A stretch of 50,132 nucleotides of DNA from Rubrivivax sp. (lineage in GTDB: Bacteria; Pseudomonadota; Gammaproteobacteria; Burkholderiales; Burkholderiaceae_C): the NCBI GenBank assembly GCA_019635285.1, contig JAHBZS010000036.1, positions 1 to 50,132 on the forward strand, in the 5' to 3' direction. The notes under the pieces were generated by a model. The model did not search any database. It had not been told where the DNA came from and saw only the letters and a program-made list of their open reading frames with translations. This document shows positions 8,585 to 11,936 of the stretch, one piece after another (positions within the stretch are counted from its first letter, which is position 1; each line of letters begins with the position of its first letter). A program made the position numbers and the translations under genes.

Positions 8585-10246
8585 ATGATGATCGAGCCCA
8601 CTCAATTGTCGCCACAGGTGCCTTCACCTCCCGCTAGCCAGATGGCCGAGTCCACTTTGCTTCACGAGCTGATTCTCGTGTCGGCGTCCAGGTCGGCCGA
8701 CGCACCGGCGTTGACCTACGGGGCGGTCACCTGGAACTATGGAACGCTGCGCGATGCCGTGGTGGGCTTCGCGTGCGGCGTCATCGGCATGGGTCTCGGG
8801 CGCAGTCAGCGCGTCGGCATCTGGCTCGAAAAACGATTCGAAACCGTGGTGGCCAGCTTCGGCGCGACGGCGGCCGGGTGCGTCATGGTGCCCATGAATC
8901 CGCTGCTGAAGCCCGAGCAGGTGCTGCACATCGCGCAGGACTGCAACGTGCGCATGCTGGTGACGTCGCAGGAGCGTTTGGCGCTGGTGGCGGGGCACCT
9001 GGCAGCCTGTCCGGACTTGCAGCACGTCGTCCTGACGGAGGCGCCCACCCGGCACATCGATCTCCCGGCCGGCGTGCAAGTGCACGTTCTTGCCGAGTTG
9101 CTGCGTGCGGCGCCCGCACCCGGACATCGGGTCATCGACACGGACATGGCCGCCATTCTGTATACCAGCGGGTCGACCGGACGCCCCAAGGGGGTGGTGC
9201 TCAGCCATCGCAACATGGTCGCGGGTGCGAAGAGCGTGGCGTCCTATCTGCGCAATGGCCCTGAAGACACGTTGCTGGCCGCGCTGCCTTTGTCGTTCGA
9301 CGCCGGCTTCAGCCAGCTGACCACCGCCTTTCATGCGGGCGCTCGCGTGGTGCTGTTGAATCACCTGCTGCCGCGAGACGTGCTCACCGCCATGGCGCGG
9401 GAGCGGGTGACCGGGCTGACGGCGGTGCCGCCGCTGTACATACAGCTTTCGCAGCTGGCCTGGCCTGCGGAAGCCGGCAGCCATCTTCGATACTTCGCCA
9501 ACACCGGCGGACGGATGCCCCGGGACACGCTGCAGGTGCTGCGCGCCAAGGTGCCGCATGCGCAGCCCTTCCTGATGTACGGCCTGACCGAGGCCTTCCG
9601 CTCGACGTACCTGCCGCCTGAAGAAGTCGACCGCCGGCCCGACTCGATCGGCAAGGCCATTCCCAACGCCGAGATCCTGGTGTTGCGGGAGGACGGCAGC
9701 GCCTGCGACGCGGACGAGCCTGGCGAACTGGTGCATCGTGGGGCGCTGGTGGCGCAGGGCTACTGGAACGACCCGGAGAAGACGGCGGAGCGCTACAAGC
9801 TGCTGCCCGCGGGCCTGGGCGGCAGGGTGCAGGGCCTTCAGCTTCCGGAGTACGCGGTGTTCAGTGGCGACACCGTGGTGCGCGATGCCGAAGGCTTTCT
9901 GTACTTCGTCGGGCGCCGCGACGAAATGATCAAGACCTCGGGGTACAGGGTCAGCCCCAATGAGGTCGAAGAGGTGCTCTATGCCACCAGGCTCGTCGGG
10001 GAATGCGTGGCGTTCGGCGTCGATCACGATGTCGTGGGGCAGGTGATCCAGGTGATTGCCACGCCCCCGGAGGGCGGCGACCTCGCGATCGATGAGTTGC
10101 TGGCGCTGTGCCGCCAGCGCGTGCCGGCCTACATGGTGCCCGCAGGCATCGAGTGCGCCGCAGGGCCCCTGCCGCGCAACGCCAACGGCAAGATCGACCG
10201 CAAGCTGCTGGCCACCGACTGGCTGGCCCGCCGCGCCGCAGGGTGA
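8585..10246 (+). CDS. AMP-forming acyl-CoA/acyl-ACP ligase, exosortase A-associated type
   Basis: 553 residues from tandem ATGs at 8585/8588; M20 (8642), just before the conserved LLHELILVSASR, is a plausible shorter start, and no start has a clear ribosome binding site. The ANL-superfamily motifs are complete: YTSGSTGRPKGVVLSHRN (about residues 192-209), MYGLTEAFRSTYLPPEE, GELVHRGALVAQGYW, YFVGRRDEMIKTSGYR at the hinge, and the catalytic lysine in NANGKIDRKLL. The short N-terminus and the TEAFRSTYLPPEE block recall the ligases found in exosortase A/PEP-CTERM loci; this is from memory of the family, not a search. It should adenylate a carboxylate and load it onto CoA or the carrier at 1352. 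It runs divergently from cysD. Confidence 0.87.
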   Translation: MMIEPTQLSPQVPSPPASQMAESTLLHELILVSASRSADAPALTYGAVTWNYGTLRDAVVGFACGVIGMGLGRSQRVGIWLEKRFETVVASFGATAAGCVMVPMNPLLKPEQVLHIAQDCNVRMLVTSQERLALVAGHLAACPDLQHVVLTEAPTRHIDLPAGVQVHVLAELLRAAPAPGHRVIDTDMAAILYTSGSTGRPKGVVLSHRNMVAGAKSVASYLRNGPEDTLLAALPLSFDAGFSQLTTAFHAGARVVLLNHLLPRDVLTAMARERVTGLTAVPPLYIQLSQLAWPAEAGSHLRYFANTGGRMPRDTLQVLRAKVPHAQPFLMYGLTEAFRSTYLPPEEVDRRPDSIGKAIPNAEILVLREDGSACDADEPGELVHRGALVAQGYWNDPEKTAERYKLLPAGLGGRVQGLQLPEYAVFSGDTVVRDAEGFLYFVGRRDEMIKTSGYRVSPNEVEEVLYATRLVGECVAFGVDHDVVGQVIQVIATPPEGGDLAIDELLALCRQRVPAYMVPAGIECAAGPLPRNANGKIDRKLLATDWLARRAAG

Positions 10247-10267
10247 TCCGACGACGCCGCGGCTAGG

Positions 10268-10531
10268 AGCCTGGGCGGCAGAGATCGGCACCCGCGCCGA
10301 GGTGGCCAAGGCCGCTGGCGTAGGCGCGTCGCGCAGCGCGGGCTCGCCGCCCGCGCAAGCGGCGCAACACCTGCCAGCGGCCTTGGGTACCTCGGCCCTT
10401 CGGGTTGGGGCTGATTCGGGCGCATGCAGCGTTGCACCGCTCGCCCGGGCGGCGAGCCCGCGCTGCGCACTGCGCCTTGCCTGCATCCCGAATCAGCCCC
10501 AACGCGGGTGCCGATCTCTGCCGCCCAGGCT
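10268..10531. repeat. 264-bp element of four interlocking inverted repeats, order A-D-B-D'-C-B'-C'-A'
   Basis: Outer arms A (10268-10296) and A' (10503-10531) are a perfect 29-bp inverted repeat. Directly inside, D (10296-10319) and D' (10373-10396) match at 22 of 24 positions. C (10404-10420) and C' (10487-10503) match at 17 of 17. B (10331-10353), inside the D loop, is perfectly complementary over 23 bp to B' (10446-10468), inside the C loop. Folded, it is a T-shaped three-way junction whose two arm loops can pair. It fills the gap between the ligase stop (10244-10246) and the stop codon of the convergent beta-helix gene, whose TAG overlaps A'. It may be a MITE or REP-like mobile repeat and could also act as a two-way terminator, though there is no T-run. 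Confidence 0.85.
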
Positions 10532-11936
10532 AGGGGCGCGCCTGGACCGCCCCCACGTACAGCGGCGCCGATGCGAGCTTCTGCACGCGCCGTGGATGCA
10601 CGTACTGCGCCGTGGGTTCGAGCAGCTGTCGGGCCTGCGCATCGTCGATCGGCTGGTAGAGCAGTCGTCCGCGCGGGTCCTTTAGCGTGTAGTCCTGCCG
10701 TGAGGGGCGCACGAAATCGTCCCAGTCGGCCCTCGCATCGCCGAAGACGCTCAGGCGGCCATCGACCTGATAGCGCCCTGGGCCGACCAGCAGGTTGTCG
10801 GCGCTGACCACGCGGTCGGCTCCGGGCGCCACGCGCAGAAAGGTGCCGCCATGGGGATGGTCGTTGACCAGCGTGTTGCTGCCCATGTACAGCGCGTTCA
10901 GCGGCCACTTGTACCCCTCCAGGCCGTAGGCCACCATGACGGAGTTCTCGGCACCGACTTGTTGCTGAATCACGTTGCCGACGACCTGTGCCAGCCCACC
11001 ATTCGGGAATTCCAGTTCGTAGCTGGCGCGGCCGCCGCTTTCGTCGGTGAGGCGGTTGTACAGGATGTGGTTGGCCTTGGCGCGACTCTTCAGCAGATGG
11101 CCGACGCCTGCGTGGTGGAAGTAGCTGCCGGTGACGGTCAGCGATGCAATCGAGCCGACATACAGGTTGTGGCCCCACTTCTTGGGGACATGGCTGTAGG
11201 CGAACTCGCTGTTCTCGATGACCAGCGTTGCGTCGGCTGCCCGATTGGTGTTGCTGGTCATCAGGCCCATCTGGTTGCCCCAGAAAAGGCAGTTCGTGAT
11301 GCGCAGGTTGCCGCCTTCGAATCGAATACCCGCGCCGTTCCCATCGCCGACCTTCGCGCCTATGAAGTCGATGTTGGCGATGTCGAAGTCGCCATGGCGT
11401 ATGACCCATATCGCTTTGCCCTCGGCGGCGCGGCCGTCGGCAAAGAGCCTGGCATTGCCGTTGACGCCCCGTATCGTCAGCTTGGCCTGGGTCCACAACG
11501 CCACATCGCCGTGGTAGTCGCCGGCTTCGATCTCGACGATGTCGCCCGCCCGCGCCAGGCGGGCCGCGTCGGCGATCCGCAGCAGCGGACCCCCGGGCCC
11601 GACTCTCCAGACGCGCCCGCCTGCTGATGCCGGGCCGGGGTCCAGCGGTGCCTGCGGGCCTTGCCTCGGAGGGGGCGCCGGCACCGGGAACGGTGCGCTG
11701 GCACGCTGCTGAGCGGCAGGTGCGTCGAAGTACCAGCGCAGCATATCGAGCACAGGGCCGGCGGCGGCCTCGAGCCGCGTGTGCCCTTTGAGCCTTCTGT
11801 CCGCGTAGTCCATCAATTCGCCCGGAGTTCGTCCCACGTATCGGTACGCCTCGAGCAGGCCCCATGCGGTGGCGCCGATGGCCACCACCAACAATGCCCA
11901 TGCGACGGTCTTGCGCTTACTGAAGGACGGTGCCAT
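10530..11936 (-). CDS. Membrane-anchored right-handed parallel beta-helix protein
   Basis: 468 residues. A single N-terminal membrane segment (about residues 10-30, AWALLVVAIGATAWGLL) with basic residues before it should anchor the protein with the rest in the periplasm. A Pro/Ala linker (about 75-100) leads to a pectate-lyase-like beta-helix: LRIADAARLARAGDIVEIEAG, LTIRGVNGNARLFADG, GDGNGAGIRFEGGNLRITNC, MGLMTSNTNRAADATLVIENS, then VGHLLKSRAKANHILYNRL. A paralogue sits at 22429. It is 135 bp downstream of the unrecognised protein at 12072 on the same strand, so the two may be cotranscribed. Such proteins cleave or bind polysaccharides; no catalytic residues can be assigned with confidence. 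Confidence 0.85.
   Translation of the reverse strand: MAPSFSKRKTVAWALLVVAIGATAWGLLEAYRYVGRTPGELMDYADRRLKGHTRLEAAAGPVLDMLRWYFDAPAAQQRASAPFPVPAPPPRQGPQAPLDPGPASAGGRVWRVGPGGPLLRIADAARLARAGDIVEIEAGDYHGDVALWTQAKLTIRGVNGNARLFADGRAAEGKAIWVIRHGDFDIANIDFIGAKVGDGNGAGIRFEGGNLRITNCLFWGNQMGLMTSNTNRAADATLVIENSEFAYSHVPKKWGHNLYVGSIASLTVTGSYFHHAGVGHLLKSRAKANHILYNRLTDESGGRASYELEFPNGGLAQVVGNVIQQQVGAENSVMVAYGLEGYKWPLNALYMGSNTLVNDHPHGGTFLRVAPGADRVVSADNLLVGPGRYQVDGRLSVFGDARADWDDFVRPSRQDYTLKDPRGRLLYQPIDDAQARQLLEPTAQYVHPRRVQKLASAPLYVGAVQARP

Follow-up and report, generated by a model that had tools for sequence, protein, structure and literature searches.

The MITEs of bacteria are usually taken to be deletion scraps whose interior is irrelevant. 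REP, BIME and REPIN units are short GTAG- or CGTC-tagged hairpins that go with a RAYT (HUH) transposase, and AAV-like terminal repeats and HUH origins come with a linked Rep protein and single-strand replication. Among the MITEs described so far, MITEPsy1 of Pseudomonas syringae duplicates a CTAG (or YTAA) target; that text does not contain the term "secondary structure", and its sole "hairpin" passage concerns REPINs (PMC3189936). Archaeal MITEs are described as having only short ends in common with their autonomous partner (PMC3852290). For IS1272, a member of the IS1182 family, a structure-dependent transposition in which stem-loops are replaced has been proposed, and the same work quotes further members of the family for which palindromes serve as targets (PMC5678879).

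The element described here lies at 10,268-10,531 of a window of 50,132 nucleotides (the whole stretch of DNA analysed, positions 1 to 50,132 of contig JAHBZS010000036.1 of Rubrivivax sp.). A sequence-only reading of the window had reported four pairings at this place, namely a pair of outer arms, two side-by-side hairpins between them and a 23-bp complement joining the two loops, and all four were recovered at their positions in a fold far beyond chance. The outer arms (10268-10296/10503-10531) pair over 29 nt at 100%, the stem of hairpin 1 over 24 nt at 92%, and that of hairpin 2, in an extended form (10401-10420/10487-10506), over 20 nt at 95%, while the loop-loop complement sits within a longer pairing, 10322-10368/10431-10477 (47 nt, 87%). 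Folded as DNA, the stretch 10262-10534 has a minimum free energy of -134.3 kcal/mol, compared with -80.7 +/- 3.6 in dinucleotide shuffles (z -14.7; 0 of 200 shuffles equally good), and the RNA fold of the same stretch is likewise very stable (z -14.4). Sister copies place the borders at CTAG followed by GAGCCTGG on the left and at CCAGGCTC followed by CTAG on the right, a motif also given as CTAG followed by GAGCCTGGGCGGCAGAGATC and closed by CTAG; relative to them the copy in the window has CCT deleted at its right border. The 264-bp interior holds no transposase gene, being too short for a 440-aa transposase, and the frames that run across it are mechanical ORFs. A scan of the element against Rfam returned only microRNA-precursor models far below their gathering scores, and a known Rfam structured RNA was rejected on that ground. 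The features are collected in Table 1.

Table 1 Features of the element and its flanks, in positions of the window
Feature	Position	Strand	Basis and remarks
Flanking gene, AMP-binding enzyme	8585..10246	+	Pfam; ends 16 nt ahead of left CTAG
Left CTAG (target copy)	10263..10266	none	Sequence, sister copies, empty sites
Outer arm A	10267..10296	+	Pairing, sister copies
Hairpin 1	10296..10396	+	Stem 10296-10319/10373-10396 and apical structured hairpin; pairing, fold, covariation
Linker CCTTCGG between hairpins	10397..10403	+	Sequence, alignment of 17 copies
Hairpin 2	10404..10503	+	Stem 10404-10420/10487-10503 and apical hairpin; pairing, alignment, covariation
Outer arm A'	10503..10531	+	Lacks three border bases, CCT, of sister copies
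Right CTAG	10530..10533	none	Leftward gene 10530-11936 stops (TAG) at its CTA
Flanking gene, convergent	10530..11936	-	Weak right-handed beta-helix match, slightly under Pfam cut-off

The sequence-only reading had allowed for a local, terminator-like palindrome should there be no second copy, or copies whose arms do not covary; instead, further copies were found and, as described below, their arms covary. The genome from which the window comes holds 11 full-length copies with conserved arms; over the 264 bp, identity is at least 97% for ten of these and 89% for the other. There are also a copy with an internal deletion (C78) and other partial places, and of the 12 copies in the first alignment, 9 have CTAG on both flanks. 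Within the genus, a divergent copy was matched in 16 of 81 genomes (E 1e-12). An order-wide DNA search, a weak one in that two candidates were scored per genome, matched 1 of 300 genomes, the element's own. A scan of named genome contigs for the terminal motif, for which the query was the ends of the element and not its core, returned at least 103 stretches; among the 80 matches listed, 25 are titled Rubrivivax, the largest group, and others come from Caballeronia, Luteimonas, Rhodanobacter, Ramlibacter, Pseudorhodoferax and more, with 274-bp copies present in the Ramlibacter and Pseudorhodoferax records. The element family is one of Rubrivivax-type Burkholderiales. From the loci examined we extracted 72 distinct elements of all sizes with both ends, 37 of which measure 274 or 275 bp with both CTAGG borders included; the rest are types of 166-220 bp, deletion forms (176-198 bp), pieces of the insertion sequence with these ends (see below) and two arm-only forms of 56 bp.

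Several smaller forms were seen alongside these. Truncated copies in the own genome keep one end and stop at variable points: four of them (L050:1193, L051:947, L053:946 and L055:1074) exceed the common arm and retain the hairpin-1 side, and at the edge of a contig (L054) there is a piece of the right end. Palindromes of 46-56 bp that consist of the arms alone and share the ends and the flanking repeats (L324:108-155, L325:118-165 and L145:1966-2021) are probably deletion forms, and possibly mobile themselves. The IS1182-type ends recur on elements of 166-169 bp (L094:2209-2376, L083:1019-1185 and L101:3726-3891) in Xanthomonadales, Gammaproteobacteria, Milos and Acidobacteria records; the three that were folded form one long hairpin from end to end, but when aligned and folded the cores of this size class are not clearly one family, and we make no covariation claim for them. 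Some of the short elements are longer by 26 or 52 bp (194 and 220 bp), which suggests added 26-bp units.

Evidence of insertion comes from sites that lack the element. We joined seven sites in silico and looked for them in 81 genomes; among the matches listed, two of the seven (the C37 site and one site in G066) had alignments across the join, and for the other five the matches extended over a single flank, came from the source genome or were lacking. All 22 relatives viewed, 12 at the C37 site and 10 at the G066 site, span the join without a 264-bp insert. In the closest listed, at 93%, 88% and 86% identity, one CTAG stands at the join; it is exact in 2 of the 12 and 3 of the 10, more distant relatives often differing. 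Empty sites with a single CTAG imply that the insertions are lineage-specific and that CTAG was duplicated. With many copies, conserved ends, empty sites, a duplicated target and autonomous relatives with the same ends (see below), the suggestion that this is a MITE is thus borne out. The C37 site (L041:3699-3972), once joined empty, shows two convergent frames whose TAG stops overlap in one CTAG, so that insertion with duplication keeps both stops intact.

The same target bears on why the element sits where it does. The sequence-only reading had considered a two-way terminator for the convergent genes, and a broader form of this explanation is that the transcript is what matters, serving as a 3' stem-loop, as a bidirectional terminator or as an insulator where convergent genes meet, and that the element has been retained for this role. 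The TAG of the CTAG is indeed the stop codon of an adjoining long GC3-rich frame in 20 of 25 copies examined (at thresholds of 100 codons and GC3 0.7; C33 and C4 fall just under the threshold, and C7, C67 and one G066 copy fail), and the stability of the RNA fold, together with the finding that stem columns of sibling copies are altered less than unpaired ones, would also fit such a role. CTAG is, however, more than tenfold scarce: base composition predicts 501 sites in 183.5 kb, and 38 were counted. Of these 38, 26 coincide with the stops of long reading frames, or 24 of 36 once the two that are element borders are set aside. Because the target is scarce and mostly found at TAG stops, it accounts for the position at gene ends, and a terminator is not needed to explain it. 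At the two sites compared, neither of them the window's own, relatives do without the insertion; moreover, stem changes among siblings are one-sided, and the G.U excess that a single transcribed strand would leave is absent, although both strands of a copy could be transcribed where it lies between convergent genes. Neither an RNA nor a terminator role is evident, and we regard this explanation as unlikely.

A candidate for the enzyme is suggested by the ends. Over CTAG and the first ~16 nt of arm A, the element agrees with the terminal inverted repeats of ISKpn6-like IS1182 insertion sequences. A Caballeronia record with an element-type end carries a 118-aa fragment of an IS1182-type transposase, which at 113 bits is under the cut-off of the IS1182 model, being a fragment, and shows 79% identity with plasmid-borne transposases annotated as ISKpn6. 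A close homologue of this fragment (72-79% identity over its length) is present in 6 of 100 relatives' genomes; there, within the same genus, the ISKpn6-like insertion sequences measure 1.47-1.56 kb and have ends CTAGGAG[YS]TG[S]GCGGCAGAA. CTAG-led inverted ends were seen at 6 of the 8 ISKpn6-like loci examined (L254 and L256 one base off), the ends being degenerate at the other two, in G079 and on a Polaromonas plasmid. Against the NCBIfam IS1182 model, whose cut-off is 270, two full-length transposases reach 401 and 383 bits, and the one scanned against Pfam has DUF772 and DDE domains. Judging from these shared ends, the element was probably moved by the transposase of an IS1182-type transposon.

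A search of the element's own genome for an ISKpn6-like transposase returned none, only distant IS1182 paralogues at 31-33% identity. Nor was one found in G009, G012, G015, G029 and G066, all bearing full-length elements; G066, an assembly of three contigs with nine element copies, gave no match. Most element-bearing relatives searched have distant IS1182 paralogues or none, and in the six genomes with an intact insertion sequence the element query was unmatched at E 1e-12. The two occur together only in traces, namely in G079, with its degenerate insertion sequence, and in G036 and G016, with short transposase fragments. None of twenty PF05598 loci examined out of a longer list, including the three in the own genome, has an end within 5 mismatches of the element's motif. 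The partner has been lost, is unassembled, or has been wrongly inferred.

The character of this transposase also bears on a quite different origin, likewise raised before, in which the structure would be a folded terminus belonging to an element that replicates as a single strand, or else a REP/BIME unit mobilised by an HUH enzyme (RAYT or Rep). The layout A-[D D']-[C C']-A' is what recalls it, as we take it to resemble AAV-like terminal repeats. Against this, CTAG is duplicated at the target and direct 5-bp repeats surround a second type of ends described below, the enzyme of the transposon with matching ends is a DDE transposase, and searches of a plasmid and a phage collection found no copies of the element. 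We therefore consider REP/RAYT mobility and HUH single-strand replication not supported and very improbable.

What sets the element apart is its interior. In an alignment of 17 non-redundant copies out of 38 (21 were left out), 96.1% of the cells in the T-shaped fold are paired, compared with 81.1% in shuffles, compensatory changes occur at 58 of 102 pairs against 34, and 0 of 500 shuffles were as high on all five covariation measures. When partners are slid by 1-3 columns, only 34-43% of cells pair, a control in which the structure has the advantage of having been derived from the same 17 copies. The fold A-[D D']-[C C']-A', for which covariance across copies had been put forward as a check, thus covaries. 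This cannot be said of the 23-bp pair between the loops, which is present in the window copy and is not conserved across copies: as a 23-pair helix it is 69.7% paired in the 17 copies and 69.4% in shuffles, and we rejected kissing loops as a conserved feature. The apical hairpins of hairpins 1 and 2 resemble inverted relatives of each other, and this resemblance accounts for the loop complementarity in this species. In one element (L115:2724-2998) the apical part of hairpin 2 appears, by eye, to be reversed within its stem, as if the hairpin had been flipped through recombination between the stem arms. The element is polar, exactly one end opening with the hairpin-1 motif in 36 of 38 elements, and the dinucleotide AA at alignment columns 107-108, unpaired inside the hairpins, is conserved in 17 of 17.

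Mismatches within the stems could in principle tell which strand is selected. A first count gave 59 G.T and 14 A.C, with the pairs chosen by the RNA fold of the very strand in question. Among 30 elements (36 of 66 being left out as redundant), pairs from the plus-strand fold gave 94 G.T and 35 A.C cells, those from the minus-strand fold 38 and 79, and pairs that are at least 70% Watson-Crick 56 and 36. Our verdict rests on the pairs common to both folds, as the unbiased set, in which G.T and A.C are equally frequent (37 and 33 cells, at 23 and 24 pair positions), so that a one-strand RNA as the selected form is unsupported.

To see how the pairing is kept, we compared stem changes within and between genomes. 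Sibling copies (31 copies in 4 genomes, leaving out C4 with its deletions and counting shared changes more than once) show 53 one-sided changes and 1 two-sided change relative to their consensus. Among the 30 non-redundant elements there are 10877 two-sided and 2524 one-sided changes, about 4:1, in pairwise counts that are not independent, and the two-sided share is 2% for element pairs at 95% identity or more, 9% at 90-95% and 63% at 85-90%. Resident copies may be constrained too, since their stem columns change less (54 changes in 168 stem columns and 82 in 102 unpaired columns, shared changes again being recounted). Resident copies are not visibly repaired while spreading lineages stay folded, a pattern that suggests selection at propagation. 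The main alternative is stem repair coupled to transposition, which predicts the same pattern as selection.

On such a repair view the element would be an ordinary MITE whose fold is functionless, the arms being made to match by hairpin-templated copying through strand switching or palindrome correction. Palindrome correction is an established process; the equal pairing on both strands is what a DNA-level process would give, and two-sided changes do predominate between lineages. Templated copying is harder to reconcile with resident copies that are nearly without correction, with the very small two-sided share among the most similar elements, and with unpaired hairpin bases, such as the AA, that are conserved and not corrected. 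We judge it rather unlikely, and return to selection at propagation as the preferred account of the fold.

The same core is also found with other ends. A second type, in which CTNAG is followed by AGNNTGTGAA...GAATC or by AGNNTGAGAGGC..., has a homologous core of 263-264 bp, and in 17 such elements the flanking 5 bp are identical direct repeats (CTCAG/CTGAG) in 8 and differ by one base in 7. Arm-only forms of this type, 46-51 bp long, have identical 5-bp repeats in 6 of 10, and 14 of the 81 genomes searched in the genus show the pattern. A third end type (AGGCTGTCGGGCTTTGGGAGGG) was seen on the folded core in one instance, L298:1627-1891. Between the consensus sequences of the first two types, identity is 41% over the first 22 arm columns and 70% in the core. 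With the three end types pooled, the core measures 263-265 in 65 of 66 distinct elements, within extraction windows of 262-279 bp with borders for the first type and 255-275 bp for the second, so that deletion forms of 176-198 bp lie outside; one misparsed row of 272 bp was left out. An autonomous partner for the second end type was sought and not found. A 2.08-kb pair of such ends in G029 was rejected as a candidate, as it has no visible transposase-like frame and resembles two separate insertions; the ends of other IS1182 elements in the genus contain AGGCTGTG and are similar to, though not identical with, those of this second type. It is conceivable, and we put it forward tentatively, that the unit of selection is the three-way-junction core of near-fixed length, joined to at least three sets of ends (CTAG with IS1182-type ends, CTNAG with 5-bp repeats, and the third CTAG type), with the fold and not the sequence required for copying, in which case well-folded copies alone would give rise to new ones.

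Taken as a whole, the element is best read as a non-autonomous MITE-type transposon that is served in trans by an IS1182-type enzyme and whose fold is selected at propagation, a reading to which we give a probability of roughly 0.7. An IS1182-type DDE transposase supplied in trans would cut at the ends of the element, which would then be joined into CTAG with duplication of the 4 bp, and selection for the fold would act during propagation, in that copies that fold would be those that spawn new ones. The selected form could be a cruciform, single-stranded DNA or a transcript; our favoured guess is extruded hairpin DNA recognised by the transposase or in replication, because IS1272, also of the IS1182 family, reportedly acts on stem-loops. 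In the element's interior a complex fold and a near-fixed length persist though the sequence drifts and the ends differ, and such conservation of the fold despite divergence suggests that folding is itself important for the element's spread. Were the fold required for copying, DNA secondary structure would be tied to DDE transposition in the IS1182 family, for another member of which structure-dependent transposition has already been proposed, and the element copies would offer a set of natural mutants with which this could be tested.

We found no description of the element in the open literature, as covered by titles and the beginnings of abstracts. ISKpn6-like IS1182 elements share its terminal repeat and the CTAG on both sides, and differ in that the element has no transposase gene and, beyond ~20 bp, a different interior with the folded core. 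REP, BIME and REPIN sequences are likewise multi-copy extragenic palindromes; the element is longer (264 bp) and has transposon ends with target duplication. MITEPsy1 is similar in being short, in its IS-like terminal repeats and in duplicating CTAG on insertion, but it is 100 nt long, has ends GGAAGGTCTG... and is likened to ISPsy2 (PMC3189936). With IS1272 the element has in common the transposase family and a DNA stem-loop structure that reportedly matters in transposition; IS1272, however, is reported to replace inverted repeats of the target without target duplication, whereas the element duplicates CTAG and carries the structure inside the mobile DNA (PMC5678879). Compared with these systems, the element is ordinary in its ends and its target, and unusual in its covarying three-way fold and in its exchange of ends.
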